From: Thermoanaerobaculia bacterium
GTDB taxonomy: Bacteria; Acidobacteriota; Thermoanaerobaculia; Multivoradales; J023
NCBI GenBank assembly: GCA_030431255.1
Contig: JAUIJL010000007.1
Span: 124,001 to 188,000 of the forward strand
Direction: 5' to 3'
Length of the DNA stretch: 64,000 nt
Of this stretch, positions 33,870 through 63,540 are shown piece by piece (within the stretch, counting starts at the first letter, position 1; each line of letters opens with the position of its first letter). The notes under the pieces were generated by a model. It saw only the letters and a program-made list of their open reading frames with translations, was not told where the DNA came from and ran no database searches. The translations under genes and the position numbers were made by a program.

Positions 33870-34025
33870 ATGGGCAAGATTTTAGGTCTCCAACAAATGT
33901 CGTACCCCGAGCTAGTGCTCGCAGGAAACAGCGACAAGAGCCGCACCTGCCAGGGTAATAGCGCGCTCAGCCTGCTTTGCGTCAAAGCCGACGCAGCGGC
34001 GGCACCCATCCGCTGGCCCCAGTAG
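33870..34025 (+). CDS. Class III lanthipeptide precursor 1 (divergent)
   Basis: 51 residues. The leader begins MGKILGLQQM, the ILxLQ motif that class III LanKC enzymes bind. The core region reads SDKSRTCQGNSALSLLC, with two S-x2-S-x2-C motifs, each of the kind that yields labionin or lanthionine/methyllanthionine rings. Unlike the other four it lacks the middle Cys (SALS in place of SCIS), and the tail is different (VKADAAAAP and so on). AGAGG stands eight bases before the ATG. It may be an older or alternative substrate of the LanKC. Confidence 0.88.
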   Translation: MGKILGLQQMSYPELVLAGNSDKSRTCQGNSALSLLCVKADAAAAPIRWPQ

Positions 34026-34090
34026 CGGGTCTGAGCCGGCCTCGAGCTGAAACGCCGGACAACATAAAGTTTCTTAGCTTACGAGCTTAG

Positions 34091-34192
34091 CCTTGATTGC
34101 CTTTCAGCCTTGATTGCCTTTCAGCCTTGATTGCCTTTCAGCCTTGATCGCCTTTCAGCCTTGATCGCCTTTCAGCCTTGATCGCCTCAGAG
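34091..34192. repeat. Six tandem 17-bp repeats
   Basis: Six head-to-tail copies of 17 bases. Copies 1-3 read CCTTGATTGCCTTTCAG; copies 4-5 have one change (GATCGCC); copy 6 is partly decayed at its end. They lie in the non-coding gap between precursor genes 1 and 2. The unit length is not a multiple of three and no stop-free frame crosses it, so it is not coding. The block may be a regulator-binding array or a slippage product. Confidence 0.93.
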
Positions 34193-34245
34193 TCACGAAT
34201 GTTGGTTAGTTTACTGCCTTGAAACCATTTACGAAGGAGTTAGAA

Positions 34246-34407
34246 ATGAGCAAGATCCTGGAGCTGCAAGCCATGTCCTACACCTCCGCTTCCGCCGAAG
34301 GCAACAGCGACAAGAGCCGCACCTGCCAAGGCAACAGCTGCATCAGCCTCTTCTGCGGCGGCGGCGGTAGCGAAGAGCCGGCCCCCGATGAGCCCGCCGA
34401 CGCTTGA
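34246..34407 (+). CDS. Class III lanthipeptide precursor 2
   Basis: 53 residues: leader MSKILELQAM, middle with Ser/Ala, core SDKSRTCQGNSCISLFC, and an acidic Gly/Glu/Pro tail. The core has two S-x2-S-x2-C motifs and a third Cys inside the second. AAGGAG lies seven bases before the ATG, which rules out a longer start. The leader is nearly identical to that of precursor 3. Confidence 0.9.
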   Translation: MSKILELQAMSYTSASAEGNSDKSRTCQGNSCISLFCGGGGSEEPAPDEPADA

Positions 34408-34465
34408 TCGATATTAAACCTTAGTTTGCAACAACCCTTTAAAACCGATACCAGGAGCAAGAAAA

Positions 34466-34627
34466 ATGAGCAAAATCCTCGAGCTGCAAGCCATGTCCTA
34501 CACCCCGGCCGCTGAAGAAGGCAATTCCAACAAGAGCCGCACCTGCCAAGGCAACAGCTGCATCAGCCTCTTCTGCGGTGGTGGCGGCGGCGAAGAGCCG
34601 GCCCCCAGCGACGAAATCAGCGCTTGA
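34466..34627 (+). CDS. Class III lanthipeptide precursor 3
   Basis: 53 residues. Leader MSKILELQAM as in precursor 2, core SNKSRTCQGNSCISLFC with the same two motifs and the extra Cys, and tail GGGGGEEPAPSDEISA. AGGAG precedes the ATG. It lies in the middle of the array. Confidence 0.9.
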   Translation: MSKILELQAMSYTPAAEEGNSNKSRTCQGNSCISLFCGGGGGEEPAPSDEISA

Positions 34628-34789
34628 TCAACCATTAAGGTTTGTCAGATACCTTCTAGAGCTTCCTTGTTCTAGGAAACCTTTAGAAAGAAGTTGGTAG
34701 AATTCCACGGTTTTCGATGATCCGGATGGTCCGGGTCACCCTCGAATCTCGATGGACTGTTAGTCACACTAAACCCTGAAGGAGTAGAA

Positions 34790-34948
34790 ATGAGCAAAAT
34801 CCTCGATCTGCAATCCATGCCTTTCGCGCCCGCTGCCGCCGCCGGCAACAGCAACAAGAGCAACACCTGCCAAGGCAACAGCTGCATCAGCCTGTTCTGC
34901 GGCGGTGGCGGCCAAGAAGAGGCCCCGGACGGCCCGGCCGAAGCCTGA
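34790..34948 (+). CDS. Class III lanthipeptide precursor 4
   Basis: 52 residues. Leader MSKILDLQSM, core SNKSNTCQGNSCISLFC, Gly/Glu-rich tail. AAGGAG lies before the ATG. A 160-base gap separates it from precursor 3, larger than for the others, and has no recognisable feature apart from a short TTCCT/AGGAA stem. Confidence 0.9.
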   Translation: MSKILDLQSMPFAPAAAAGNSNKSNTCQGNSCISLFCGGGGQEEAPDGPAEA

Positions 34949-35028
34949 TTCGTGAGTGCTTACCGGCACTGATTGATACCGCAGAAATAAAAAACAAAAA
35001 CGTTAGTTGATCTTAGGAGATCGAAAAC

Positions 35029-35181
35029 ATGAGCAAAGTACTCAACCTCCAGTCCATGGCCTACACCCCGACCCACGCTGCTGAGGGTAACTCCAACAAC
35101 AGCAACACCTGCCAAGGCAACAGCTGCATCAGCCTGTTCTGCGGCAGCAAAGAAGTCGAGTTGTCGCCGGCTGAGGCTTGA
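35029..35181 (+). CDS. Class III lanthipeptide precursor 5
   Basis: 50 residues. Leader MSKVLNLQSM, core SNNSNTCQGNSCISLFC, and a shorter tail (GSKEVELSPAEA). AGGAG precedes the ATG. It is the last precursor before a stem structure and the LanKC gene. Confidence 0.9.
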   Translation: MSKVLNLQSMAYTPTHAAEGNSNNSNTCQGNSCISLFCGSKEVELSPAEA

Positions 35182-35197: not shown

Positions 35198-35281
35198 AGA
35201 GCACGGCGGATAGAGCCGCCGGGGCGCTAGTCAGGGGGGGCACAGCCCCCCCGCCTACCCCGCCTCTCACCGCCGTGCTCT
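35198..35281 (+). terminator. Candidate attenuator/partial terminator between precursors and lanKC
   Basis: AGAGCACGGCGG at 35198-35209 is the exact reverse complement of 35270-35281, a 12-bp stem followed by AGTTTTCTTTCTT. Inside lie two more stems: GGCGG-ATAGAG-CCGCC, which uses part of the outer left arm, and seven G at 35234-35240 with seven C at 35246-35252 around CACAG. The outer and inner left pairings exclude each other, the layout of an attenuator. It would allow more precursor than enzyme transcript. Confidence 0.6.
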
Positions 35282-35447: not shown

Positions 35448-38105
35448 ATGAGTGGCTTGACTTCTTATACTTTCGCCCATTCGGAGTACTACGAAACCAT
35501 TTCCCGCTACCAGGGAACCTCCTACTTCGTCGATCGCGTGACCCCGCTCCTGCCCGAAGGTTGGTCACTCGGCCGCTATCAAATCTGGCTCGCCACCACT
35601 TACAAGCCGGCCGACGATCTGCTCGGCGAGCAAGGCTTCAAAATCCATATCTCCGGCACGCCCTCCACCGCCCTCGAATTGATCGACCTGGTGGTCCCCG
35701 CCTGTGTGGAAGAGAACACCACCTTCAAATTGGTGGCGGATCCCGCTTTGTTGAGCATGGTTTGCTCCAAAAGCTACCACCGCGGCGGCTCGGGAAAATT
35801 CTTTACGATCTACCCGCCGGACATGGACACCTTCAAACGTCTGATCGAGAAAATTTACCAACGCACCCAGCACCTCGACGGTGCTTATATTCTTTCGGAT
35901 CGGCGTTATAAAGATTCTAAGGTCGTCTTCTACCGCTACGGCGGCATCCTGCCCCACAACAATCTCAAGGCCGACGGCACCAAAACCGCTATTTTCATGC
36001 GCCCCGACGGCAAGGGCATCTTCGTCGACGACCGGAACCCCTTCTTCACCCTGCCGGATTGGGTCGAGGATCCGTTCCCTCAATCCGAGGAGGAGCAAGG
36101 CTCCGGGCTGCTCAACGAGCGCTACGAGGTTCGCGACGTGCTCGGATTTTCCAACTCCGGCGGCGTGTACAAGGCCTGGGACACCCGCGACGAGCGCGAG
36201 GTGGTGATCAAGGAAGCCCGCCCCAACACCGCGCCCTGGTACTTCGACGACAAAATGCTCGACGCCCAAGCTCTGCTGGAAAACGAGTGGCTGATTTTGA
36301 GCAAGCTCAAGGACGTGGATTTCACCGCCGAGCCGATCGAGATCTTCAGCGAGTGGGAGCACACCTTCTTGGTCCAAGAAATGCTGCCCGGTCTGCCGTT
36401 GACCAACTACCGCGCCAGCGATGATCTGCGGCTGCTGCCGTTCTATGAAGGCCGCGGCATGGTGGAGAACTTCTGCGACAAATTCCACACCTTGGCGACC
36501 CGCCTGATGGCTTGTCTCAAGACCTTCCACGATCGGGGCATCCTGCTGGGCGACCTCTCCCCCAACAACATCCTGATCGACAAGGAGACCCTCGAGGTCC
36601 GTTTCATCGATTTCGAAAGCGCCTGGGATCAGAACCGTGGCGACGAGATCGGCCGGCTCTCCACCATCTGGTCGACCCCGGGTTATCGCACCGCCGAGCG
36701 CAACAAGCGCAAGAACGTGTCCGCGGCGGACGATTACTACGCCCTGGGCATGGCGCTCTACAGCATGATGCTGCCGATCCAAGGGGTCTTCGAGCTGGTA
36801 CCCGAGGCGAGGGAGCGGTTCATCGATCGCATCTCCTCCTTGGTGGGCCTTCCCGAAGAGGTGCATCAGGTGATTTTCGCCTTGGCGGAGAACCGTCCCG
36901 AGGACGCCGAGCAGGTGCTGGCTGATTGGGATCCCAACGCCGAGCCGTCCAAGCCTTGGGCGGATTCCTCACCCTTGCTCGCCGAGCTGCCCGAGCTGAC
37001 CTCGAGCATCGCCGACCACCTGCTGGCCACCTACGACGTGGAGCGCAAGGATCGCCTGTGGCCGTCGGATTTCGCGGTCTTCAGCACCAATCCCCTGAAC
37101 GTCGCCTATGGCGCCTGCGGCATCGCCACGTTCCTCCAGCAGTATCAAGGCCAGGTGCCCGAAGCGGTGGAGAAGTGGCTGCTCGACCGGCCGATGTCCA
37201 ACAAAGACATGCCCCCGGGCCTCTACGTGGGCGCCGCCGGCGTGGCCTGGACCTTGTTGGAGATGGGTCACGAGGATCGTGCCCTCGAGCTGATGCATCG
37301 CTCCTACACCTCGCCCCTGGTCACCGAGGAGAACGACATCCTGCACGGTGCCGCCGGTTGGGTGCTCGCCGCTGCCCGCGTGTTCGCCGCCACCGGCGAT
37401 CAAGACCTGCTCGCCGAAGCCACGGTGCTCGGTGACGTGTTGGTGAGCCGGGCGGTCCAACAGGACGTGGGCATCGCCTGGCCCGACGACGAAGGCAAGA
37501 TTCATCACGGTTTCGCCCACGGCACCAGCGGCATCGCTTACGCCCTGCTGCGGCTTCACCTTGCCGGTGGCGAGGCGCGATTCCTCGAAGCGGCCCGCGC
37601 GGGCATGGACTTCGAGATCAGCAGCGCCATCGAGCGCGAGGAAGGCCCGGTGTGGGGCAACCACGTGGGCAGCAAGCTGATCTCCCCCTATTGGTCCCAA
37701 GGCGCCGCCGGCGTCGGCACCGCGGCGATCCGCTTTGCCACCTTGCTCGGCGACGACACCTACATGGACTTCGCCCGTCGGGTCGCCGATTCGGCCCACT
37801 ACCAAATCACCGCTTGGCCCGGTCTCTTCGACGGCGTCGCCGGATTGGGCGAGCTGATGGTCGATCTCTTTCAGGCCACCGGTGACGAGGTCTACCGCCA
37901 ACGGGCTTTGGAAATGGCGGAAAGCGCTCTCTGTTATCGCAGCGAGAAAGAAGAAGGTCTCGCATTCCCTGGTCGTTACCTGCTGCGCTTGAGCACCGAT
38001 TTGGCACACGGCTCCGCGGGTATCGGCATGTTCTTTCACCGTCTCAGCCAAGGTGGCCCCCGGGCCTTCCACGATTGGCAAGAGCAAACCTCCGAGGAAA
38101 AATAA
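35448..38105 (+). CDS. lanKC: Class III lanthipeptide synthetase LanKC
   Basis: 885 residues with three domains. The N-terminal phospho-Ser/Thr lyase part has YQIWLATTYKP, FKIHISGTPST and HRGGSGKFFTIYP, matching the RamC/LabKC N-domain, with ILSDRR and RYGG further on. The kinase domain (about 225-500) has the Gly-rich loop GFSNSGGVY, the Lys in VVIKEA, GDLSPNN and IDFES (DFE in place of DFG). The LanC-like cyclase (about 510-885) has HHGFAHGTSG, YWSQGAAG and DLAHGSAG, where the usual zinc ligands Cys and Cys-His of LanC are absent. That absence identifies class III, not class IV. It dehydrates Ser and cyclises onto Cys. ACGGAG precedes the ATG. Confidence 0.95.
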   Translation: MSGLTSYTFAHSEYYETISRYQGTSYFVDRVTPLLPEGWSLGRYQIWLATTYKPADDLLGEQGFKIHISGTPSTALELIDLVVPACVEENTTFKLVADPALLSMVCSKSYHRGGSGKFFTIYPPDMDTFKRLIEKIYQRTQHLDGAYILSDRRYKDSKVVFYRYGGILPHNNLKADGTKTAIFMRPDGKGIFVDDRNPFFTLPDWVEDPFPQSEEEQGSGLLNERYEVRDVLGFSNSGGVYKAWDTRDEREVVIKEARPNTAPWYFDDKMLDAQALLENEWLILSKLKDVDFTAEPIEIFSEWEHTFLVQEMLPGLPLTNYRASDDLRLLPFYEGRGMVENFCDKFHTLATRLMACLKTFHDRGILLGDLSPNNILIDKETLEVRFIDFESAWDQNRGDEIGRLSTIWSTPGYRTAERNKRKNVSAADDYYALGMALYSMMLPIQGVFELVPEARERFIDRISSLVGLPEEVHQVIFALAENRPEDAEQVLADWDPNAEPSKPWADSSPLLAELPELTSSIADHLLATYDVERKDRLWPSDFAVFSTNPLNVAYGACGIATFLQQYQGQVPEAVEKWLLDRPMSNKDMPPGLYVGAAGVAWTLLEMGHEDRALELMHRSYTSPLVTEENDILHGAAGWVLAAARVFAATGDQDLLAEATVLGDVLVSRAVQQDVGIAWPDDEGKIHHGFAHGTSGIAYALLRLHLAGGEARFLEAARAGMDFEISSAIEREEGPVWGNHVGSKLISPYWSQGAAGVGTAAIRFATLLGDDTYMDFARRVADSAHYQITAWPGLFDGVAGLGELMVDLFQATGDEVYRQRALEMAESALCYRSEKEEGLAFPGRYLLRLSTDLAHGSAGIGMFFHRLSQGGPRAFHDWQEQTSEEK

Positions 38106-38107
38106 TC

Positions 38108-39712
38108 ATGAGCTCGGTATGGCGCCTTCTAGGTCGCTGCTTCGTCTGGCTAAGGCCCCATTGGAAACTCTTCGGAGCCCTGCTTCTGGTGGTCACCCTC
38201 CAGGCATTGATGAGCGGCGTCGCGGAACCCCTGATCACCCAGAACATGATCGACAGTCTCAGCCAACGGGACGTGACGACCTTCCTCTGGCTGGCAGGTT
38301 TTGCCATCGCCATCGCCACCGCCACACGGCTCACCTCGTTGGTCGGTGACATCGGCAATCAAAAACTCAACAACAAGCTGTGGTCGAGCTTCACCTTGGA
38401 AGCCACCAAGGCTTTCTACAACAAGCCCCACCGGGACATCGCCAAGCAGGAGAAGGGTTACCACGTCTCCCGGCTCTACGACGAGCCCAAGCGGCTGACC
38501 ACGGTGGTCGACTTGGCCCTCGACGGGGTCGTCGCCGCGGTCACCTGCATCGGCGCCCTGGCGGTCTGCCTGTGGCTCTCTTGGAAGGTGATGTTGGTGC
38601 TGTCGATCATCGTGCCGACCTTGCTCTTCCTAGCGGAGCGCTTCGGCAACCAGATTCGCGACGTCACCTCCAGGGGGCACGAGAGCGAGGCTCAGCTGCG
38701 GGCCACCTTCGGCCGCGCGGTCGACAGCCACCGCAACGTGCAGCTCTACGGCTTGCGCCACCGGGTGATGAATCGCCTGCGGGACATGCTCGGCAAACAC
38801 CTCGAGATCGTGCTCTCCACCACCCGGGTGTCCTCGCGATACCAAACCACCAGCGGCGTGATGCTGGCCTACGCGGAGGTCGCGGTGCTGATCGGAGTGG
38901 GCGTTCAGGTGCTCTACGGTCAGCTGTCGATCGGTGGCATGTTCGGCTTCACCCAGGCCTATTGGCGTGTGGTGCAGGGGGTGCGAAGCCTGGCGATTCT
39001 GGTTCCCCAGCTGGCGTCCTTGTCAGCGGTGGCCGATCGCTTCGAGGACCTGGTGAAAGACCAACCGTCCGGCGCCAACTATTCCCCCGACGGCAACGTC
39101 GCCCTTCGGTCGGTGGAGTTCAGCCACAACGACCGCCCTCTGCTGCGCAGGATCGACGTCTCCGTCGACAAGGGCGAGCGGGTGCTGATCACCGGCGCCA
39201 ACGGCACGGGCAAATCCACCTTGCTGCACCTGATGGTCGGTCTGTTGGAGCCGCGCCAGGGCACCGCCGAGACCCCGAGAGTGGAGAACGTCAGTGCCAT
39301 GTTGCTGCCCTTCGCCTTCATCCCCGGCGATCTCAGCGACCAATTGGCGATCGACGAGCGCGCCCCGGGTGTGGTGAGCAAGATCGAGGCCCTGGCCAAG
39401 AAGCTGGGCATGGAGGATCGCTGGCAGGAAGATCCGGCCAATTTCTCGGAAGGTGAGAAGAAGAAGGCTCAGGTGCTCATGACCTTGAGCAAAGAAGCCG
39501 ACTTCTACGTCTTCGACGAGCCGTTGGCCAACATCGATCCAGAGACCAAGGACTCGATCCTGGAGACCATCCTCTCCCTCGATTCCGACAAGGCGGTCAT
39601 CGTCATCCTGCACGGCGACCACAGTCTTTACGAGCATTTCGATCGACAGCTCCAACTTCGCGACGGCGCGATTTTCGAGCTTCAACACGCGCTCCCCGCT
39701 GCGGGCGGCTGA
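38108..39712 (+). CDS. ABC exporter of the lanthipeptide cluster (LanT-like)
   Basis: 534 residues with an N-terminal ABC exporter membrane domain (six helices) and a C-terminal ATPase: Walker A ITGANGTGKSTLLHL, signature FSEGEKKKA (modified from LSGGQ), Walker B FYVFDEPLANIDP. There is no N-terminal C39 peptidase domain, so leader removal must be done by another protein. Its ATG lies two bases after the lanKC stop, showing tight coupling. It probably exports the modified peptide across the inner membrane. Confidence 0.92.
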   Translation: MSSVWRLLGRCFVWLRPHWKLFGALLLVVTLQALMSGVAEPLITQNMIDSLSQRDVTTFLWLAGFAIAIATATRLTSLVGDIGNQKLNNKLWSSFTLEATKAFYNKPHRDIAKQEKGYHVSRLYDEPKRLTTVVDLALDGVVAAVTCIGALAVCLWLSWKVMLVLSIIVPTLLFLAERFGNQIRDVTSRGHESEAQLRATFGRAVDSHRNVQLYGLRHRVMNRLRDMLGKHLEIVLSTTRVSSRYQTTSGVMLAYAEVAVLIGVGVQVLYGQLSIGGMFGFTQAYWRVVQGVRSLAILVPQLASLSAVADRFEDLVKDQPSGANYSPDGNVALRSVEFSHNDRPLLRRIDVSVDKGERVLITGANGTGKSTLLHLMVGLLEPRQGTAETPRVENVSAMLLPFAFIPGDLSDQLAIDERAPGVVSKIEALAKKLGMEDRWQEDPANFSEGEKKKAQVLMTLSKEADFYVFDEPLANIDPETKDSILETILSLDSDKAVIVILHGDHSLYEHFDRQLQLRDGAIFELQHALPAAGG

Positions 39713-39731
39713 GCGGGCAAGGAGCAACATC

Positions 39732-42128
39732 ATGTTCACGCACTACCTCAGCGCCGCCTGGCGCAGCTTGAAACGGGATCGCGCCTACGCCGCGATCAAC
39801 CTTGCGGGGCTCTCGGTCGGCATGGCGGTCGCTCTCTTGATCGGCCTCTACGTGGTCGACGAGATGAGCTACGACCGCTGGTCTCCCGAGGCCGAGCGCA
39901 CCGCGCGCATCGTGTTGGATTGGCGAGTGGGCGAGCGCGACGTGCACGCTCCCTTGTCGCCGGGACCCCTGGCAGACACCTTGAAAGAGCGTCTGACGGG
40001 CGTCGAGGCGGTCTCGCGCATCAACACCACCGAGCAGATCGTACGAGCGGGAGAGGAACGTCACCACGAGAAGCAGGTGTTCTGGGTAGACGCCAACTTC
40101 TTCGAGTTCTTCTCCCTGCCGCTGAACGGCGCCGAGGCCTCCGAGGTCCTGGCCCAGCCCGATCGCGTGGTGCTCTCGCCCCGGGCGGCGATCAAATATT
40201 TCGGCACCGAGCAGGCGATCGGCAAGGTGTTGAGCATCGAGGAACGCCCCTACACCGTGGCCGCCATCTCCGACCTGGGGGATCGCAATCTGCATTTCTC
40301 CTACGACGTGGTGGCGCCGCTCGCGGCCCGCACCCGCGGCCCGTGGATCGACACTTGGTTGGCCTTCAACATCTACACCTACTTCCGGCGAGCGCCCCAA
40401 AGCTCGTTCGAGCAGGTGGAGGCCGGCTTGGCCGGCCTGGTGAGCCAGGAGCTGCTGCCCCGGCTGATGGACGCCATGGGTCGCGAGCAGGAGGAGTTCC
40501 TCTCCTCCGGCGGCAACTTCCGCTTCAATGTGCAGCCGGTGCGAGACATCCACCTGCACAGCAGCTTGGAGCACGAGCTCGGCCAGAACGGTGACGCCCG
40601 ACAGGTTTACGTGCTGCTGTCGTTGGCCCTGGCGGTCCTGCTGATCGCCAGCATCAACTACATCAACATGGCGACCGCCCGGGCGACCCGCCGGGGTCTC
40701 GAGGTGGGGTTGCGCAAATGCTTGGGGGCCGAGCGCTCCCAGGTGCGCTGGCAATTCCTGATCGAGGCCGGCTTGGTGAGCGCGACCGCGATCCTGGTGG
40801 CTGTCGGCTTGGTGGTGGCGGCGCTGCCCTCGTTCAACCAGCTGATGTCCAAGGATCTCACCGCGTCCGGTTTGGCCCAACCCGCGATGTTGGCCACCCT
40901 GCTGGCCCTCTTCCTGGGCTCAGCGGCGGCCTCCGGCCTCTATCCGGCGTTCGTCATGGCGCGCTTCCGTCCCCTGGACATGGTCCGCCGTCGCTTCTAC
41001 CGCGGCCGTGAAGGCTGGCGTCTGCGGGCGGCTCTCGTGACCTTCCAATTCGCCGTCGGCGTGTTGATGATCATCGCTTCGCTGACCATCTTCCGCCAGA
41101 TCGACTTCTTGCTCGACAAGGATCTCGGCTTTCAGCCGGAGAACGTCGTGGTGGTCGAGAACATCGACAACCTGGGCGATGGCTGGCTGGGTCTGAAGCA
41201 AGACGTGCTCAAGGCCGAAGGGGTCGTCGCGGCCTCCGGTGCCAGCGGCCTGCCCGGCCATTGGATCCGCGAGGTCTACTTCGTCGGCGAGGGCGGACGG
41301 GAAGAGACCCAGACCAGCTGGTTGGTGAGTGTCGACCCGGACTTCTTCGACACCCTGGGCATCGAGCTCAGCGCCGGTCGTCGCTTCGAGCAAGACGAGC
41401 CCGCCAGCGGTGTGGCCTACATCGACCGCCTGGCGGCCGACCTGCTGGGCACCGGTGATCCCCTGGGCCAACAGCTCGACGTGATGACCATCCCGCGCTA
41501 TCCGACGGTGGTCGGCACCTTCGAGGGAGTCCACCTCGCGCCCTTGCACCAAGGCATGCGCCCGACGGTGATCCGTCCACTGACCGAGCATCCGAAGTAC
41601 CTGGCGATCCGGGTCACCGACGAGCAGGCCTCCCAGGTGTTGCCGCGGATTCAAAGCGCTTGGCGTCGACACGCTCCCGAGCAACCGTTCCAAGCCACCT
41701 GGCTGGAGGACGACATCGCCGCCTTCTACGCCGACGAAAGCCAAACCGCCTCCCTCGCCACCGGCGCTGCCCTGCTTGCGATCTTCATCGCCTGCATCGG
41801 GGTGCTCGGCCTGGGCGCCTTCACCGTCGAGCAACGGACCAAGGAAATCGGGGTGCGCAAAGTGCTCGGGGCTTCGGCGCCCAGCATCGCCGCCCTGGTG
41901 ACCAAGGACTTCGTGGTGCTGATGGGCATCGCGGTGCTGATCGCCACTCCGCTCGGATGGTGGTTGATGACCCGCTGGTTGCAGGACTTCGCCTACCGCA
42001 TCTCCCTCGGACCGACGATCTTCGTCTCCGCCGCCCTGTTGGCCCTCGGCATTGCGGTCACCAGCATCTCCGCTCAGGCCCTACGCGCCGCCCGCCTCCG
42101 GCCGGCCCGCAGCCTGCGCTACGAATAA
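39732..42128 (+). CDS. FtsX/MacB-type ABC permease
   Basis: 798 residues with two FtsX-like membrane blocks and two MacB-type periplasmic domains: the first helix is in AYAAINLAGLSVGMAVALLIGLYV, three helices sit around 300-420, and the last block ends in ALRAARLRPARSLRYE. It is the membrane part of the MacAB-type set whose adaptor and ATPase genes follow. AAGGAG precedes the ATG. It may export or detoxify the mature peptide or carry it past the outer membrane. Confidence 0.92.
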   Translation: MFTHYLSAAWRSLKRDRAYAAINLAGLSVGMAVALLIGLYVVDEMSYDRWSPEAERTARIVLDWRVGERDVHAPLSPGPLADTLKERLTGVEAVSRINTTEQIVRAGEERHHEKQVFWVDANFFEFFSLPLNGAEASEVLAQPDRVVLSPRAAIKYFGTEQAIGKVLSIEERPYTVAAISDLGDRNLHFSYDVVAPLAARTRGPWIDTWLAFNIYTYFRRAPQSSFEQVEAGLAGLVSQELLPRLMDAMGREQEEFLSSGGNFRFNVQPVRDIHLHSSLEHELGQNGDARQVYVLLSLALAVLLIASINYINMATARATRRGLEVGLRKCLGAERSQVRWQFLIEAGLVSATAILVAVGLVVAALPSFNQLMSKDLTASGLAQPAMLATLLALFLGSAAASGLYPAFVMARFRPLDMVRRRFYRGREGWRLRAALVTFQFAVGVLMIIASLTIFRQIDFLLDKDLGFQPENVVVVENIDNLGDGWLGLKQDVLKAEGVVAASGASGLPGHWIREVYFVGEGGREETQTSWLVSVDPDFFDTLGIELSAGRRFEQDEPASGVAYIDRLAADLLGTGDPLGQQLDVMTIPRYPTVVGTFEGVHLAPLHQGMRPTVIRPLTEHPKYLAIRVTDEQASQVLPRIQSAWRRHAPEQPFQATWLEDDIAAFYADESQTASLATGAALLAIFIACIGVLGLGAFTVEQRTKEIGVRKVLGASAPSIAALVTKDFVVLMGIAVLIATPLGWWLMTRWLQDFAYRISLGPTIFVSAALLALGIAVTSISAQALRAARLRPARSLRYE

Positions 42129-42158
42129 TTCATCCACGACGAACCCAAGGTGAGCATC

Positions 42159-43472
42159 ATGAAACCCCAAATCTCAGAGTCTCAACACACCGAGACCACC
42201 GCCGGGCTCTCCGGAGCGGGCATGGATCGTGTGGTTGAAAAACCGGGCTTGACCCTCGGCAAAAAGGCCTTGATCGCCCTCGCCCTCATCGTTTTGGTGG
42301 GCGGCAGCTACTCCCTCTTCGCCGGCACCACCACCGACTCCTTGCGGGTCGAGTGGGACCGCCTGACCGTGGCCGAGGTGATCGAAGGCAACTTCGAGGA
42401 ATACATCTTGGTCAGCGGCGTGGCTCAGCCCCGGCAGTCGATCTTCCTCGACGTGGTGGTCGGCGGACGGGTGGAGGAGGTCATGGTCCGCGAAGGCGAG
42501 ACCGTGGTCGAAGGCCAACCGCTCCTGCGCCTGGTCAACAACGATCTGCAGCTGCGGCTGCTGAGCGCCGAGACCCAGCGCATCGAGCAGGTGCATCAGC
42601 TGGAGGACTTCCGCTCTCGAATCAAACGGGAATCCCTGGAACGGCGCCAAGAGCTGTCGGACATGGACTACCAAATCAAACGGCTGGAACGCCAGGATCG
42701 TCGCAATCAAGTGCTGCTCGACGAGCAATTGCTTGCCCAGCAGGATTTCGAGGCCACCCGCGACGAGCTCGAGTTCTACCGTCGGCAGCGGGAATTGACC
42801 CTGGAGAGCTTCGAGCAAGACTCCTTGCGGTCGGAGACCCAGCTGCAACAGATGGAAGCAAGCCTGAAATCCATGGAAGAGAACAGCGCGGTGACCCGCC
42901 GGATTCTCGACAGCTTGGTGGTTCGCGCGCCCATGAGCGGTCAGCTGACGGCCCTCGACGCCCAACCCGGTCAGCTGCTCAGCTCCGGCAAACCCCTCGG
43001 CCAGATCGACGCGGTCGACGGCGGCTTCCGAGTGCGGGCGCAAATTGACGAGTACTACATCGATCGGGTGGCCGTGGGTCAAACCGCGCGCCTCGAGGAT
43101 CGCGGCGAGACCGGCGCCGAGGTCACGGTCCGACGCATCTTCCCGGAAGTCAGCGAGGGCAAATTCGAGGTCGAGCTCGACTTCGCCGGTGACTCCCCCG
43201 AAGGCTTGCGTCGGGGCCAGACCGTGCGTTGTCGCTTGCAGCTGGGCGGCACCCACGACGCCCTGCTGGTGCCCCGGGATCGCTTCTACCACCAAACCGG
43301 AGGCCATTGGATCTACGTGGTGTCGGGCAATCACGCGGAGCGACGGGATATCCGCCTAGGTCGCCGCAACCCCGAGCACTTCGAGGTGCTCGACGGCCTA
43401 GCCCCCGGTGAGCAAGTCGTGATCTCCGGCTACGAGGATTTCGGCAACGCCGTCCGACTGGTCGCCCGATGA
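42159..43472 (+). CDS. HlyD/MacA-like membrane fusion adaptor
   Basis: 437 residues: a cytoplasmic start, one membrane helix (ALIALALIVLVGGSYSLFAG), a lipoyl/barrel-sandwich half-motif (VEEVMVREGETVVEGQPLLRL), a long coiled-coil hairpin (ERRQELSDMDYQIKRLERQ and on), the second lipoyl half (RAPMSGQLTALDAQPGQLL), and beta-barrel and membrane-proximal domains. It links the inner-membrane pump to an outer-membrane channel. I prefer the ATG at 42159, which has AAGGTG upstream, to the GTG at 42150. No TolC-like gene lies in the cluster. Confidence 0.92.
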   Translation: MKPQISESQHTETTAGLSGAGMDRVVEKPGLTLGKKALIALALIVLVGGSYSLFAGTTTDSLRVEWDRLTVAEVIEGNFEEYILVSGVAQPRQSIFLDVVVGGRVEEVMVREGETVVEGQPLLRLVNNDLQLRLLSAETQRIEQVHQLEDFRSRIKRESLERRQELSDMDYQIKRLERQDRRNQVLLDEQLLAQQDFEATRDELEFYRRQRELTLESFEQDSLRSETQLQQMEASLKSMEENSAVTRRILDSLVVRAPMSGQLTALDAQPGQLLSSGKPLGQIDAVDGGFRVRAQIDEYYIDRVAVGQTARLEDRGETGAEVTVRRIFPEVSEGKFEVELDFAGDSPEGLRRGQTVRCRLQLGGTHDALLVPRDRFYHQTGGHWIYVVSGNHAERRDIRLGRRNPEHFEVLDGLAPGEQVVISGYEDFGNAVRLVAR

Positions 43473-43528
43473 AGCACGATCTCAACTAAAGATTTCTCAG
43501 ATCCAACCACCTTAACTGGAGCTTCGAA

Positions 43529-44233
43529 ATGACCCAAGACACCCTGATCCGCTTGACCCAAGTCCACAAAACGTTCCTCACCGGCAACGTGGAAACCCGC
43601 GCCCTCGACGGCGTCGACCTCGACATCCAACGGGGCGAGCTCGTCGCCATCATGGGCCCGTCGGGCTGCGGCAAGTCCACCTTGCTCAACACCCTCGGCC
43701 TGCTCGACTCGCCGTCCACCGGCAGCTACCGCTTCGGCGAGCACGAGGTGGCGGGATTGTCGGAAACCCAGCTCACCCGGCTGCGCAAAGGCAACATCGG
43801 CTTTGTGTTCCAGAGCTTCAACCTGATCGACGAGCTGACCGTCGCCGAGAACGTCGAGCTACCCCTGCATTATCTCGGCGTCTCCAAAGCGGAGCGCAAA
43901 AAGAAAGTCGCCGTCGCTCTCGAGCGGGTCGGCGTCGCCCATCGCGCCGACCACTACCCGCAGCAGCTCTCCGGCGGTCAACAACAACGCGTCGCCGTCG
44001 CCCGCGCCGTGGTCACCCAGCCGAAAGTCCTGCTCGCCGACGAGCCCACCGGTAACCTCGATTCCCACCACGGCCGGGAGATCATGGAGCTATTGAAAGA
44101 GCTCAACGAGGCGGGCACCACCATCATCATGGTCACCCACTCCGAATCCGACGCTCAATACAGCGATCGCATCCTGCGCCTGCTCGACGGGCGGCTGATC
44201 GAGTCGGAGACCGTGCGACGCATCGCCGCTTGA
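43529..44233 (+). CDS. MacB-like ABC transporter ATPase
   Basis: 234 residues. Walker A GPSGCGKS (about 43-50), Q-loop FVFQSFNL, signature LSGGQQQR, Walker B VLLADEPTGNLDS and the switch His in MVTHS are all standard, and the sequence matches the LolD/MacB group. It drives the FtsX-type permease encoded two genes before. It is the last gene of the lanthipeptide cluster and is followed by a strong terminator. Confidence 0.95.
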   Translation: MTQDTLIRLTQVHKTFLTGNVETRALDGVDLDIQRGELVAIMGPSGCGKSTLLNTLGLLDSPSTGSYRFGEHEVAGLSETQLTRLRKGNIGFVFQSFNLIDELTVAENVELPLHYLGVSKAERKKKVAVALERVGVAHRADHYPQQLSGGQQQRVAVARAVVTQPKVLLADEPTGNLDSHHGREIMELLKELNEAGTTIIMVTHSESDAQYSDRILRLLDGRLIESETVRRIAA

Positions 44234-44297: not shown

Positions 44298-47200
44298 CAT
44301 GTTCAGCTCGACCTCGACCTCGACCGGCTCGGCGCCGGCAACTAGGATCTTGTGAATAGGGTCGGCGGGCTGCTGTAGTGTCCCTGGACGGACACTGTCC
44401 AGAGGCTCGGATCACGCCCCTTCCTATGGACGCCGCGTGCCCTAGCCCCGTAGGTGGCCCCGGCCTGGAGCCGCTGAGCGGGAAGGCGGATGGGCGTCCC
44501 GCTCATGATGTGCCCGTAGTGGATCCCGGTGAGAGGCGGATCGAGAGGCGCTCCCTCGCTGTCCAAAATCTCCACCTCGTAGTGGGTCGCTCCGGCCACC
44601 GGGTCGCAGTTGACGGCGAGGGCGTCCGCCTCGTTTTCGACCCTAACGGAGGTGGGCGCCGCAATCTCGACGAGATCCAGCTCCAACGCCGAGCTCCAGG
44701 CGCCGCGCGATTGCCTGAGCCAGGCTCGGACAAGAACCCTGTAGGTCGTTCCGATCAGCAGCTCCGATCCGTCGTAGGGAGCACCGGATATGGCGGGTTT
44801 CCAGGAAGGGAAGGACGGCCCCGAGCTATCCACATCTATCAACTTGAGCTCGAACGAAAGATGCTCGTCCTCGGACGGGTGCTCCCAAATGGCGACCAGC
44901 TCTTTTTGGGCGTTGTTGAAGATCAAAAACTTCAGGTCGGGAATTTCGGGTTTGTAGTCGAAAGCATACGGTGCGCTTTCGAGCCCGAAGACCGACGCGG
45001 AAGAGTCCGCGGCCCCAGCGGGGCTCGGCTGCAGCGATATCCCCACCGCACGGGCGACGAAGGGAGATTGGTCAAGGAGGTCGAGGTCGAGGACGGCAGA
45101 AAGGCTGCCCGGATCGGAAACGGCATTGGACACGAGCGGCGAGCCCAGGCCATTGACGAGCGACACCGCCAGGGCATCGGCGCCGGCCGGCATGGACTCG
45201 CAGACCACGGTCAGTGTCGCCTCTTGGAAGGTCACCGCGCTGATCGTGGGCGCTGGAATGGGGCTCGCCGTGACCTCGACCGGGGTGCTCCAAGCACCTC
45301 GCTCGTCGCCTTTCAGGGCTTGGACCTTGACGGTGTACGTCTGGACGGAAAGGTGCTCGGATACGTCGAATAGCGCTGGAAGGGCAGGATTCACATCCAG
45401 GACCGACTCCCCGCCATCTCCGGTCACCACAAGCCGATAGGTGATTCCCGATTCCTCGCTCTCCTCCCAGGAAACGAGCAGTAGATCTCGTGCCATGTGC
45501 AGCTCGACCTCGACCCGGGTCGGCGTCGGCAACAAGGATCTTCTGAACAGGGTCGGCGGGCTGCTGTACGGCCCCTGGACGAGCACCGTCCAGACGCTCG
45601 GATCACGCCCCTTCTCATGGAGCGCGCGCGCTCTCACCCCGTAGGTGGTGCCGGCCTCGAGCCGCTGAGCCGGCAGGCGGATGGGCGTCCCGCTCATGAT
45701 GTGCCCGGCATGGGCCCCGGTGAGCGGCGGATCGAGAGGCGCTCCCTCGCTGTCCAAAATCTCCACCTGGTAATCGGTAGCTTCATCCACCGGGTCGCAG
45801 GTGACGGCGAGGGTGTCCGCGTCATTCTCCACCTGGATGGAGGCGGGCGCCGCAAGCTCGACGAGATCCAGCTCCAACGGCGAGCTCCAGTCGCCGGGCG
45901 ATTGCCGGAGCCAGGCTCGGACAAGAACCCTGTAGGTCGTGCCGATCTCCAGCTGCGATCCGTCGTAGGGAGCACCGGAAATGGCGGGTTTCCAGACCCG
46001 GATCGGCAACCCCGGACCCTCCGTATTCAACACGGCGAGCTCGAACGAAAGATGCTCGTCCTCGGATGGGTGCCGCCAAGTGGCGACCAGCTCTTTTTGG
46101 ACGTTGTCGAAGATCAAAACCTTCAAGTCGGGGGTCTCGGGTTTGTATTCGAAAGAGTAAGGAACGCTTTCGAGCCCGAAGACCGACGCGGATGAGTCCC
46201 CGGACCCAGCCGGGACGGGCTGCCGCGACACCCCCACCGCACGGACGGCGAAGGGAGAGTCGTGGAGGAGGTCGAGGTCGAGGACGGCGGAAAGGCTGCC
46301 TGGATCGGAAACGGCATGGAATACGAGCGGTGAGCCCTGACGATTAAGAAGTGACACGGCCAAGGCATCGGCGCCGGCCGGCATGGACTCACAGACCACG
46401 GTCAGGGTCGTCTCTTGAAAGGTCACCGCGCTGATCGTGGGCGCGGGAATGGCGCTCGCCGTGATCTCGACCGGATGGCTCCAAGCACCGCGGTCGTCAC
46501 CTTTCAAGGCTCGGACCTTGACGGTGTACGTCCGGCCGGGAAGGAGCTTGGCCCCGTCGTGAAACTCACCCGAAACCGCTGGATTCACCTCCAAGACCGA
46601 CTCCCCGCCGTCTCCGAGCACCACGAATCCATAGGTGAGCCCCGATTCTTCGATTTGCTCCCAGGAAACACGTAGTTGAGGCCCGGTCATGTGCAGCTCG
46701 ACCTCGACCCGGGTCGGCGTCGGCAACAAGGATCTTCTGAACAGGGTCGGCGGGCTGCTGTACGGCCCCTGGACGAGCACCGTCCAGACGCTCGGATCAC
46801 GCCCCTTCTCATGGAGCGCGCGCGCTCTCACCCCGTAGGCAGTCCCGGCCTCGAGCCGCTCGGCGCGGACGAGGATGGGCATCCCGTCATGGGCCCCGGT
46901 GAGCGGCGGATCGAGAGGTGTCCCCCCGCTGTCCAAAATCTCGACCTCGTAATCGGTCGCTCCATCCACCGGGTCGCAGGTGACGGCGAGGGTGTCCGCC
47001 TCGTTCTCGACCTGGATGGAGGTGGGCGCCGCAAGCTCGACGAGATGCAGCTGCAACGGCGAGCTCCAGCCGCTGGACGATTGACCGTGCCAGAAGCGGA
47101 GCCGAACCTCATAGGTCGCGCCGATCATCAGGCTCGATGCGTCATAGGATGTTTCGGAGAGGGCGGGTTTTCGCTCGAATACCCGCTCCCCACGAGCATC

Positions 47201-47310
47201 AAAAGCGGCGAGCTCGAAGAACAGATTCTCATCCTCGGGAGGTTCCCAATAGCCGGAGAGCGTGTGGCTCGCACTGTCGAAGAAGACGCCGTGCAGGCTC
47301 GGCGCCGGGA
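44298..47310. repeat. About 1.19-kb repeats inside the giant gene
   Basis: The stretch starting CATGTGCAGCTCGACCTCGA at 46688 returns at 45494 (1194 bases, 398 codons) and, more diverged, as CATGTTCAGCTCGACCTCGA at 44298 (1196 bases). The 160 bases around the first two copies are almost identical. Each unit encodes four fibronectin III-like modules. The first unit is more diverged at its N-terminal side and the third is cut short. High DNA identity points to recent duplication or gene conversion. Confidence 0.9.
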
Positions 47311-50300
47311 TCGGGGCGAAGCGGATCGTGACGGGATCGCCGTATAACCCCACAGCTCCCTCGACGGACGCCTTCACCATCACTCCATAAGTCTGGTCCA
47401 ACTCAAGGTCGGGGCCGTAAATCTTCGCCTCGACCGAATCGGCTTGCAGGGTGATCTCAACGGTCGGTTGCGTCACGAGGGGAAGGCCGGAAGCGTCGAG
47501 CACCAAGGCCTGATACTCCAACGGCCCGGACCCGTCCGAAGGCGCGAGGAGCGGATTCCAACGGGCATGGAGCACCGAATCGTGGAGACTGAGCTCAAGG
47601 CCGTCGGGCCCCGGCAGCACGGTCAACGTCGCCTCGACCTCCGGGCCGGTGCTCGACAGACTGACTCCGTGGACAGCGGCCCGGAGCTGAGTTTCCGCCG
47701 TGATGGGGACGTCGGCGAAGGTCGCTGTGGTGCCCCCGATGATCGGCGTGATGGAGTGACCCTGAAGGGACGCCGAGTAGCCCAAGCCGGCGGGGCCCGG
47801 CGGCGCTTCCCAAGTCAACGTCAGCTCCACGGGGCTCCGTCCCAGCTCGGGGATCGCGAGCATAGGAGCCCGGGGCGGACCGATGGTCTGAAGCTCGGTC
47901 TTGGGGCTGGGTTTGCTGACGAATCCATTCCTGGCCGCCACTACCTCGGCCGAGTATTCCATTCCTGGCGTGATGCTCAGGGAGTCGGACGTGCCGGAGG
48001 TTTCGCCGGTGTGGATAAAGTTGTCGGCACCTGAAACTCGCACGACGTAGACGTATGTGTCGGCCGCCACCGAATTCCAGGTCACGGTCAAGGTGGATCC
48101 TGTCTGGGACAGATGCGGCGCGCCGGGTATGGAGGGCCGCTCTGTGGTCGGCGGGTCGGTTCCATGGTGTTGATTGTCGCCACCACCGTTGATGAAAACA
48201 CCACCGACCAGTGTGCCGACGACCCCTCCGACGACCACGGTCACCCCGTCGATCACGAGCTCGGTCGTTACCGCTTCCGTCGCCGCTTCGGCCAACAACT
48301 GAGCGGTTTCCCTCTCGATCCCAGAGCAAACGAATAGGCTCGCGACATGCTCGATCGACCATTTGACGCCCTCGACGGCCAAAATCTGGGCGATCTTGTC
48401 GGCATTTTTGAGCAGCCCCTCAAAGGTCTTAGCGGCGGCATTCTGGAGGGTCGGCCCGATCTGATCCGCCACCCAAGACCACGACACGTCGTCGCTCGGC
48501 AACGGCACCTCATAGTCCACGGGGACCAGGGGCACCTCGATAGTTGGAGAGCCCTCGGTCGCGCTCGTGAGGTAAAGAACGAACGAGCCGCCTACGGAGA
48601 GAGTGACCTGACCTGGAGACAGCCCAAACCGGATCGACGCGTTGAAGCTCGAATGAATCGGCAATTCCAAGATGGCCTGCTCGAGACCTTCGCACCAGGT
48701 AGCTGGAATATTTTTAAAGCTGAAGCCCGGCAGGGTCAGCGCAGGGAAAGGCCAGCGCTCGACATGAAAACCATCCTCTTCGCTCCAGGTGAATTCGAGC
48801 GCGGGCAAGGCGCCCAAAACCGGCAACGTGGCGTCGAATCGCAGATTTCCGGACAGCCTTTCAGACTCCACCTCGATGAGAGCGCTCGCCGTGGGTTGCT
48901 GAAAAAGGGTCACCCCCGCCTCCAGCCCGAAATGCGTACCTTCTTCGCCGCGATAGCTCCGGATTGCCACCCTCGGCCCGGCGTGGGGATTTTCCACGCC
49001 GGTCAACCCGATCACTCCAAAGAAATTGAGCGGTACGGTGAAAGCGGCGCCGGCGAGCATCACCAATTGATCTTCGCGGTCTTGATAGACGTCCACACTG
49101 AGAACGATCTCGGGCAAAAATAGAATCGTCACCTTGGCCGACGCATGGAGACCGGCTTCATAAATCTTCTGATCGATCAAGATCTGCCGGGGCGCAAAAT
49201 GAAGATGCCCGTCGCGAAGCTCGATGTCCGGTCGTCCGGCGGGCCAGGTGTAGCCCACGAGCCGGCTCAGCAAGGCTCCCACCCCCAGCACCGCCGGCCG
49301 ACCGTCGGTATCGATCATGTCGACGACCACCACTTTGGCTTGACCGCTTTCGATCAAAACCTTAGTGCGCAAGGCGAAATTGCCGATCGACACGTCGCCG
49401 GTGAAGAAAGTGGCAACGTCCTTCACGTTTCCATTCGGGTCGAAGGCGCATCGCGCCACCAGACCGAGGCGGCTCAGCTCCACTCCGAACATGCCGAGCG
49501 GTGTGGGCACGGTTTCCGTCGTTTCCGCCATGAAAAGGGCCTGCTCGGAAGACACCACCAAGGAGCTGCTGAACGGCGGCGGCGAATAGGAGCCGATATC
49601 GATGGCGATTTGGCCGGCCAGAGAAAGCTCCGGGTCTTCTGCCGTTTGATAGCGATAGTTGAGCTGAATACCGTTCAGCTGGAGAGCGCTGAACAGGGTC
49701 CGGCTGCCGAGATCCGCCGTGAAGGTCGCCCCGCCGTCGTTGCCTGGATCGACGTGACCGACCAGCCGGTATCCGCCCTCCGGCGGTTGGAGGGCGAGGA
49801 TCTTCGCAACGTTTCGCAGCAGCCCCCCGCTGAAGTCGAGACGCGCGTAAATGCTGAGGCCCGGCTCGAGCGACAAGCCTTCCGGAATGGCGGGAATCTT
49901 CCGGTGGATGAGATCCCCGACGTCGCGGTTCAGATTCGAAATGGCGATCGCCGCGTCGACGCGTTCGACCCCGAGCACTCGGTCGACCCCTTCCAGACCT
50001 GGAACCAAAGCGCCGAAGGTCCAATGGCCGAGGGCCGCGACGAGAGCAAATCCCCAGGGGGCTTGATCGTCGCTCGCGTCTCGCTTCTCGATGAGCAGCG
50101 CCACGGCCGCGTAACGGGCGTCCACCTCGCCGGCGGCGTACTGGCCCCAGACCAGAAATCTCTGCCGACTGAGGTTCAAAATCGCATCGACTTCCACCAC
50201 CGTTTTGGGCACGGTGAATTCGGAAGGCAAGGCCACCCGAGCGAATGGGTCCGCCTCGCCAAGGGTGTCGCCGGCCACGGACGACAGGTCGGCCTCGACG

Positions 50301-52528: not shown

Positions 52529-53562
52529 CAAAACGCGGGCCTGAAACCGAGGCGTTCTTCGGAAACGTCGGTGCCGGGAAAAATGGTCCGCGAAGACGCA
52601 TCCAAACCGTTCCAACCCTGCGGATAGGTGAGAAAAAGGGCGGTTAGGATGGCAAGACCGGCCCCGGCGTTGAAGTTCTTCAGCTCCCACCAAACGGTCT
52701 CGGGCAACGGCGTCAGAAGCGGGTCTTGAAAAACGAACATCCAAACCGACCAGAAACCACTTGCCAATGCTTCCAGGGTGATCGCCTCGACCATTAGCTT
52801 GATCCTTGGGTCTTCGAGCCGATAATCGGCCCTCTGCACGATGTTCTCAAGATCCCCCAGAGCCGCGACCGCGTTGAGGTAGGTCGTCGTGCGGTTCCTG
52901 ACCCGGCGATCACTCGCTTTGGAGTCCCCCTCGATGTGGCGATTCAGCTTCAAGGTGGAAATCGTGCGCTTGGCCTTGGCTCTTGCCGAGTCCTGCTGCG
53001 GCAAACCGCTGATATAGCGTTCATTGGGAATCACCCAAAGCTGGTCGGTGGCTCGGGTGAAGTGCGCATGCTCAATTTCCTCCGACTCCGGAAGGTGCAA
53101 ATCTCGTTGCCTCAGCATGGCTTGAGACTGCGCCGAGTATTCGTACGAGAAGAGCTGATACGCCTGTTGTTTTGGAGGTTGGTAGGGCTGTCTGCGGGGC
53201 GGGTTTGGGCAAAAATCCGGCCAAGCCCAATGATTCATCACCGCGTGGTAGAGGTCTTCTCCGCGTTGCGCGACTCCTCTTGCGTCTTGAACGTCCGGGT
53301 GGGCGCCCTTGGCACTATTGCAGGCTCCGCAAGCCACCACCAAGTTGACCCAATCGGTCTGACGGTGCGGAAACCCTCCCTCTGACTTTTGGGATGCTTC
53401 CTTTTTGGCGGCTTTGTGCTCGACCGCGGTATCGTTCGTGACCGGGGATTCACAGTAGGCGCAATAGCTGCCCAGAGTGTCCAGAAGGGCATGTCGCCAA
53501 GCATCGTATTCCTCGGGTACGCCCCCCCTGACCTCGGGGTATGGTTTCCACAATGGCCGCAT
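52528..53562 (-). CDS. HNH endonuclease-like protein 1
   Basis: 344 residues. The N-terminal HNH domain has CAYC (Cys34/37), EH (Glu48-His49), the Asn in WVNLVVACGACNSAKG (Asn73), and a second CxxC with Asn and Lys, giving a zinc-bound beta-beta-alpha metal site like PtuB/retron-associated nucleases. The C-terminal part has DRRVRNRTTTY and GFWSVWMFVFQDP, which recur in protein 2. The ATG lies three bases after the protein 2 stop, and the stop overlaps the ATG of the giant gene, so all three are coupled. The likely role is DNA or RNA cutting in a defence or toxin system. Confidence 0.88.
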   Translation of the reverse strand: MRPLWKPYPEVRGGVPEEYDAWRHALLDTLGSYCAYCESPVTNDTAVEHKAAKKEASQKSEGGFPHRQTDWVNLVVACGACNSAKGAHPDVQDARGVAQRGEDLYHAVMNHWAWPDFCPNPPRRQPYQPPKQQAYQLFSYEYSAQSQAMLRQRDLHLPESEEIEHAHFTRATDQLWVIPNERYISGLPQQDSARAKAKRTISTLKLNRHIEGDSKASDRRVRNRTTTYLNAVAALGDLENIVQRADYRLEDPRIKLMVEAITLEALASGFWSVWMFVFQDPLLTPLPETVWWELKNFNAGAGLAILTALFLTYPQGWNGLDASSRTIFPGTDVSEERLGFRPAF

Positions 53563-60547: not shown

Positions 60548-60733
60548 GCTAGCCCGGAAATTTCACCAACTTCGTCGCGAGACGCCGGAGACGCCTGCAG
60601 GTACAAGGAAGAAGAAGCATTCTGCGACGCAGGCATACTTGCAGTATGTTGAGGAGCAGAATCGGCTTCTGACGCTGTAGATGCAGGTGGATACGGTGTC
60701 GCAGCAGAAGGCTGGTGAGATTTCCGGGCTAGC
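60548..60733. repeat. 186-bp inverted-repeat element (MITE- or REP-like)
   Basis: The ends are 22-base inverted repeats with two mismatches (60548-60569 and 60712-60733), starting GCTAGCCCGGAAAT. CCGGGCTAGCCCGG at 60724-60737 is a 14-bp perfect palindrome. The internal part has other repeat-like motifs such as CATACTTGCAGTATG (a 5-bp stem) and no protein frame. The right arm contains the stop codon of the CHAT gene, so the element is inserted against its 3' end. Confidence 0.7.
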
Positions 60734-63425: not shown

Positions 63426-63451
63426 GGGCGCGAAGCGCAAGCATTTATCCC

Positions 63452-63476
63452 CCCCTCTCCCGGGACGGGAGAGGGG
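63452..63476. repeat. REP-like palindrome before the CHAT gene
   Basis: CCCCTCTCCCG (63452-63462) and CGGGAGAGGGG (63466-63476) form an 11-bp stem with loop GGA, followed by GAGTTAGGGGGGTGAGGG. This pattern of C-rich and G-rich arms is a repeated intergenic element in many GC-rich genomes. It separates the CHAT gene from the next gene. Confidence 0.75.
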
Positions 63477-63540
63477 AGTTAGGGGGGTGAGGGCTCTCCC
63501 CCTCACGTCCGACCTCACCGCGTCCGACCGAGCCACCCCC

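Follow-up and report, generated by a model that had tools for sequence, protein, structure and literature searches.

An additional cysteine inside the second ring motif of four class III lanthipeptide precursors from a Thermoanaerobaculia bacterium

A lanthipeptide cluster with five precursor genes

The window, by which we mean the whole stretch of 64,000 nucleotides analyzed here, comes from a host genome assembly of 10.2 Mb in 54 contigs and carries a cluster that, judged from its genes, encodes class III lanthipeptide precursors together with their neighboring LanKC synthetase. Five precursor genes (33870-35181) lie upstream of the LanKC gene (35448-38105), and exporter genes occupy 38108-44233. 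The features, in window coordinates, are as follows.

33870..34025 (+), precursor 1: class III leader ILGLQ, two S-x2-S-x2-C motifs, two Cys, tail VKADAAAAPIRWPQ with charge +1; 28.1 bits against NF038159 (cut-off 30)
34246..34407 (+), precursor 2: NSCISLFC, three Cys, Gly run and acidic tail; NF038159, 26.9 bits
34466..34627 (+), precursor 3: NSCISLFC, three Cys, Gly run and acidic tail; NF038159, 32.0 bits, above the cut-off of 30
34790..34948 (+), precursor 4: NSCISLFC, three Cys, Gly run and acidic tail; NF038159, 25.3 bits
35029..35181 (+), precursor 5: NSCISLFC, three Cys, shorter tail GSKEVELSPAEA with no Gly run; NF038159, 29.4 bits
35198..35281 (+), long hairpin and then a T-rich stretch, between precursor 5 and LanKC: fold of -59.3 kcal/mol, z -4.97 versus 200 shuffles
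35448..38105 (+), LanKC, class III lanthionine synthetase with lyase, kinase, and cyclase in one chain: NF038151, 705.4 bits; RamC_N, Pkinase, LANC_like
38108..39712 (+), ABC exporter, membrane part and ATPase: ABC_membrane, ABC_tran
39732..42128 (+), MacB/FtsX-type permease: MacB_PCD, FtsX
42150..43472 (+), HlyD-type membrane fusion protein: HlyD_3
43529..44233 (+), ABC ATPase, putative partner of the MacB/FtsX-type permease: ABC_tran

The hairpin at 35198..35281, which was absent from the output of a simple terminator scan, is a possible attenuator and could cut transcription such that precursors outnumber the synthetase. A promoter scan found no promoter, with terminator-like sites at chance level, and no C39 peptidase was present among the 20 families listed (E up to 1) for the ABC exporter at 38108..39712. 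Between precursors 1 and 2 the window has a tandem repeat of a 17-base unit (34089-34187; 5.8 copies, 98% matches), and an ORF of 2800 codons, in whose translation similar segments recur, adjoins the cluster (44342-52744, -). Elsewhere, the window encodes a caspase-domain (Peptidase_C14) protein (7429-8373, -) and a CHAT-domain protein (60732-63536, -).

The synthetase scored 705.4 bits against the class III model NF038151 (cut-off 575), and a class IV (LanL) identity was rejected by score, the 562.8 bits obtained with NF038150 lying below the cut-off of 650. It aligns over most of its length with a solved class III LanKC, chain 8sao_B (E 5e-69), and its cyclase residues Ser750, Phe794, and Asp795 are aligned with Ser, Phe, and Asp of that chain, which we take to be ThurKC, the chain numbers being three lower at both places. 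On that assumption, the cyclase would by alignment have no zinc ligands, as described for ThurKC, where Ser726, Phe770, and Asp771 stand in their place (PMC10604976). The window has 37 ORFs with 100 codons or more, and a scan of 33 of them found no thiol oxidoreductase, no GMC oxidoreductase of the kind present in the tha/the clusters (PMC13083261), and no azole-forming oxidoreductase, on which ground an azole at Cys-Gly was rejected.

Three cysteines in precursors 2 to 5

The ATG starts of the precursors (33870, 34246, 34466, 34790, and 35029) were chosen by leader motif and ribosome site, the ORF list having earlier starts for precursors 1 and 2. All five precursors have a leader motif of the LxLQ type (IL[EGD]LQ or VLNLQ) and two S-x2-S-x2-C motifs, with Ser21, Ser24, Cys27, Ser31, Ser34, and Cys37 invariant throughout. 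Only precursor 3 passes the 30-bit cut-off of NF038159 (lanthi_III_b), with 32.0 bits against 25.3 to 29.4 for the other four, and both models of SapB/RamS precursors stay below their cut-offs in five of five cases (PF19402, 16.3 to 19.2 bits versus 24.3; NF033212, 9.6 to 15.8 bits versus 25).

In translation, precursors 2 to 5 read GNS[DN][KN]S[RN]TCQGNSCISLFC, and precursor 1 reads GNSDKSRTCQGNSALSLLC in the same region, TCQGNSALSLLC being the segment that matches TCQGNSCISLFC. An earlier note on this DNA had reported NSCISLFC in precursors 2 to 5 and NSALSLLC, with no extra Cys, in precursor 1; both the DNA and the translations bear this out, and the stretch given for the four copies, 34246-35181, fits as well, with the last stop ending at 35181. 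The extra residue, Cys32, is encoded by TGC in all four copies (34339-34341, 34559-34561, 34883-34885, and 35125-35127 in precursors 2, 3, 4, and 5, +), and its counterpart in precursor 1 is GCG (Ala32; 33963-33965, +), which differs from TGC at all three bases. Precursors 2 to 5 hold three Cys each and precursor 1 holds two; if every ring motif closes, one Cys is left over in each of copies 2 to 5 and none in precursor 1.

Precursor 1 departs from the other four in further respects. Two of its motif residues are changed (I to L and F to L), it has no Gly run, the charge of its tail is +1 as against -2 to -5, and its Shine-Dalgarno energy, at -6.5 kcal/mol, is slightly weaker than those of the other four (-6.6 to -8.3 kcal/mol). 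Precursor 1 is no clean control, since its tail and two further motif residues are different as well, and the within-cluster test of ring order proposed in the earlier note is weaker than claimed, given those two residues, the Gly run, and the tail charge. A single change of Cys32 inside one of copies 2 to 5 is the cleaner comparison.

A scan of a collection of genome contigs with the precursor alignment found no close relatives of the precursors. In the genome that contains the window, the precursor search returned the five known genes plus two matches at E 0.96 and 2.5. The same genome has a second class III cluster (L013, 10018-13293 of contig C41), whose two precursors contain a six-residue core repeat, S-C-x-S-x-x; a similar repeat is present in loci L014, L036, and L091 of the survey described below.

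Synonymous sites set the segment around Cys32 apart from the rest of the copies. Within TCQGNSCISLFC (Thr26 to Cys37), 4 of 72 same-residue codon pairs among copies 2 to 5 differ synonymously, compared to 22 of 72 in two other segments taken together (12/40 in codons 1-12 and 10/32 in GNSxxSx; Fisher p = 0.00014, with codon pairs that are not independent). Fresh draws from the codon usage of five neighboring genes give an expectation of 33.4 differing pairs of the 72, and the single variable column observed among the 12 codons compares with a minimum of 3 in 20000 simulations. Precursor 1 stands apart in this segment, with 14 of 36 codon pairs differing. The pattern fits a segment that was recently shared among copies 2 to 5 by duplication or gene conversion, or that is constrained at the DNA level. 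Since the synonymous sites of TCQGNSCISLFC are nearly identical, the four copies count as approximately one evolutionary event, and selection on Cys32 itself cannot be read from what is nearly one sequence.

Surplus cysteines in a survey of LanKC loci

Named genomes supplied 53 LanKC loci; further loci came from genome draws, which partly overlap and in which the center genome was counted each time. Genomes with LanKC numbered 3 of 59 among relatives, 3 of 396 in the phylum, and 3 of 148 in the class. Draws around other centers gave 5/298 (phylum of L036), 1/298 (family of L057), 2/245 (family of L059), 17/195 (phylum of L038), and 65/101 (family of L056, 30 of them taken as loci). A search at E 1e-60 found no LanKC in the single available relative of the same genus or in five further members of the family. 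Loci L019, L065, L023, and L051 were omitted as repeats ahead of synthetase extraction. From the resulting 121 synthetases, that of the window included, 23 were dropped by eye with no computed cut-off (repeats, second halves, and near repeats, with three of four from Rheinheimera among the 23) and another four were dropped for being under 600 residues (L061, L066, L069, and L096), so that 94 entered the tree. A leader-plus-motif pattern found 125 precursors at 83 of the 94 loci, with ORFs judged false by strand or place, plus those of L111 and L122, taken out by hand; the survey covers precursors that fit this pattern, and the 11 rows with none may hold one that it missed.

The window LanKC falls into a clade of 16 rows with an SH-aLRT of 100, in a quick tree search with no bootstrap. 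Among the 15 clade loci with precursors, 13 use x2 spacing (L043 uses 3, and L049 fits no plain motif), 11 have two motifs, and 4 have only one. Outside the clade, x2 is the sole spacing in 13 of the 61 loci with a scorable motif and appears at least once in 18. Surplus Cys is present in 13 of the 15 clade loci and in 39 of the 68 loci outside the clade (Fisher p = 0.04, with no correction for relatedness); L018 and L056 are the two clade loci without it, precursor 1 being in the same position. Since surplus Cys is common across the survey (52 of 83 loci), the window is not exceptional in having it. Four clade loci from Corallococcus and other Myxococcota (L038, L081, L082, and L095; LanKC identity of 42-43%) likewise have two motifs and one surplus Cys within the second, but place it immediately ahead of the second Ser (SGCSVGC), one residue beyond the position next to the first Ser that it has in the window. 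The thiol may therefore be kept while its place moves.

We assessed the position of surplus Cys with a placement test on 61 distinct cores, in which the motif residues (Ser or Thr, with spacings of 2 to 5) stayed where they were while the positions of surplus Cys were randomized in 5000 trials. A surplus Cys directly after the first Ser, position +1, occurs in 15 of the 61 cores against 4.9 +/- 2.1 expected, a count that none of the 5000 trials reached. At +2 the count is 12 against 4.9 expected (5/5000), and between the second Ser and the closing Cys it is 20 against 12.7 (77/5000). By this test, Cys inside ring motifs is favored in general and most strongly at +1. The 15 cores are not independent and fall, by our own reading of the tree, into four or five lineages; in L026, L027, L107, and L108 the motif is readable two ways, which makes the +1 Cys ambiguous, and the count without these four is 11. 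Counted by locus, S-C-x-S-x2-4-C is found in 13 of 83, with at least 7 changes on the tree. Whole-core shuffles were rejected as a test and replaced by the placement test, since they destroy all structure and gave enrichment for five of five Ser/Cys patterns tried.

Cores with a +1 Cys also tend to hold a second surplus Cys (10 of 15, versus 14 of the 46 remaining cores; Fisher p = 0.017). Its presence in most of them points to an intramolecular disulfide there; the window precursors have no such second Cys.

These counts bear on the question of whether Cys32 does anything at all. It could have arisen once, spread by tandem duplication or gene conversion, and been tolerated with no role, a course of events in keeping with the synonymous differences (4/72 in TCQGNSCISLFC versus 22/72), with the way in which precursor 1 and 2 of the 15 clade loci manage without surplus Cys, and with the 52 of 83 survey loci that possess one. 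However, Cys occurs at +1 more often than random placement predicts, in four or five lineages, and a useless free thiol in a peptide that carries dehydroalanine would be expected to be lost; on balance we consider a roleless Cys32 unlikely. The earlier note had argued for a chemical role from the constancy of the Cys in four paralogues. That argument is weak given approximately one event, while the role itself is plausible on other grounds, namely, the +1 enrichment in class III cores and the surplus Cys in 13 of 15 clade loci, although 39 of the 68 loci elsewhere carry one as well.

Possible fates of Cys32

As a tentative reading, to which we give a little less than an even chance, Cys32 is a thiol outside the rings that, once exported, remains free or forms an intermolecular disulfide. 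The adjacent LanKC would dehydrate Ser21, Ser24, Ser31, and Ser34 of precursors 2 to 5, and two labionin or lanthionine rings would close on Cys27 and Cys37, as class III chemistry suggests. Cys32, between the two Ser of the second motif, would close no ring and, if a labionin forms there, would sit in the small carbocycle of Ser31 to Ser34. The peptide would then leave through the ABC and MacB-type exporters with the thiol free, and after export the thiol would stay free or, in an oxidizing periplasm, link a second peptide by a disulfide. The sequences, the Cys count, the synthetase class, the exporter genes, and the recurrence of the arrangement are observed, and we infer all of the chemical steps and the export route. 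An oxidizing periplasm is plausible because the host genome has DSBA-family matches above the curated cut-off, of which the best has an internal stop; the family also matches in 8 of 14 control genomes, and nothing ties those genes to the cluster.

The Cys count yields a prediction that is independent of the enzyme model: with both motifs closed, precursor 1 has no thiol and copies 2 to 5 have exactly one. Because three Cys minus two ring Cys leaves one, no intramolecular disulfide can form in copies 2 to 5 if both motifs close. Of the roles offered in the earlier note, this one falls away under that condition, and sequence does not discriminate between a competing ring, a thiol that stays free, and a disulfide between peptides. 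Against a non-ring thiol stands the observation that +1 cores elsewhere mostly carry two or more surplus Cys, whereas the window has no second one. It is doubtful, in our estimate, that the full extension of this reading holds, in which four lanthipeptides, each with one unpaired Cys in a ring motif, would form disulfide homo- or heterodimers after export, precursor 1 would give a monomer, and S-C-x-S-xn-C would be a recurrent unnamed class III feature. Among the papers listed for lanthipeptides with an intermolecular disulfide, none concerned a class III product, judging by title.

If LanKC closes one motif only, Cys32 could instead pair with the Cys of the other motif (Cys27-Cys32 or Cys32-Cys37, both C-x4-C), and the product would have one labionin or lanthionine plus one disulfide, with precursor 1 giving two thioether rings. 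Disulfides in class III products are already published for labyrinthopeptins and paenithopeptins (PMC4018250, PMC8960859), the latter having a labionin inside a larger disulfide-bridged ring (PMC8960859). The tendency of a +1 Cys to accompany a second surplus Cys (10/15 cores) and the single motif of 4 of the 15 clade loci lean the same way, as does a published labionin pattern that bars Cys inside the motif (PMC11251773); by that rule both motifs of precursor 1 qualify, and in copies 2 to 5 the first motif would be the only one to count. Yet all five precursors, precursor 1 too, share Ser21, Ser24, Cys27, Ser31, Ser34, and Cys37 without exception, and 11 of the 15 clade loci have two motifs, and we find such a loop improbable.

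Weaker by a shade is a competing ring, in which Cys32 would add to dehydrated Ser24 or Thr26 upstream, or to Ser34 in reverse, and alter the ring order relative to precursor 1. Thr26 and Ser24, 6 and 8 residues upstream of Cys32, are invariant, and in one of the two L013 precursors, which has the letters NSCIS, the Cys there would close an S-x2-S-x3-C ring. But precursor 1 conserves both residues as well and has no Cys32, no [ST]-x2-[ST]-x2-5-C is completed by Cys32 (the pairs 26/29, 25/28, 24/27, and 23/26 are never both Ser/Thr), and overlapping rings would need to precede the canonical ones.

Several known systems resemble the window cluster in part. The disulfide of labyrinthopeptins A1 and A2 reportedly lies within one peptide; unlike them, the window peptides have only one surplus Cys if both motifs close. 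Labyrinthopeptins are class III products that also hold a disulfide, and lantibiotic disulfides, theirs included, are indicated as being of minor importance to activity (PMC4018250). Paenithopeptins A to E (PttA1/PttKC) are class III and have a disulfide besides labionin, with one ring motif per core in the precursor group as described (PMC8960859), versus two in the window. The Paenibacillus survey loci L026 and L027, which read SSCDxxSC, may or may not resemble PttA1.

The SapB/AmfS and andalusicin type (RamC, ThurKC) is alike in its LanKC, LxLQ-type leader, and S-x2-S-xn-C motifs (PMC10604976). The motif called characteristic is Sx2Sx3C (PMC7268733), as opposed to the x2 spacing of the window; SapB precursor models remain below cut-off for all five window precursors, and copies 2 to 5 add the surplus Cys inside the second motif. 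The aci cluster (AciA1/AciA2/AciKC) of a coral-associated Acidobacteriota member is also class III and shares the Gly-rich C-terminal precursor region with the window; expressed in E. coli, it gave seven dehydrations (PMC13083261). Its authors place it in UBA6911, a class other than that of the window, and give the motif as S/TX2-(SX2)5 (PMC13083261).

In the literature consulted, mostly open-access texts without supplements, we found no account of a recurrent class III feature in which a Cys immediately follows the first Ser, the nearest published statement being the labionin pattern mentioned above, with its exclusion of Cys within the motif (PMC11251773). Our survey suggests that class III cores with a Cys inside a ring motif are not uncommon, and a pattern that bars it (PMC11251773) will misread such cores. 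If Cys32 does stay outside the rings, precursors 1 to 5 are natural variants, from one cluster, that have or lack a spare thiol, suited to the question of how a metal-free LanKC picks its Cys among three.

LanKC proteins in the clade of the window often match as two pieces, lyase-kinase and cyclase (L038, L095/L102, L096/L105, L098/L103, L099/L104, L056, L043, L049, and L050), and natural splitting of LanKC may be common there.
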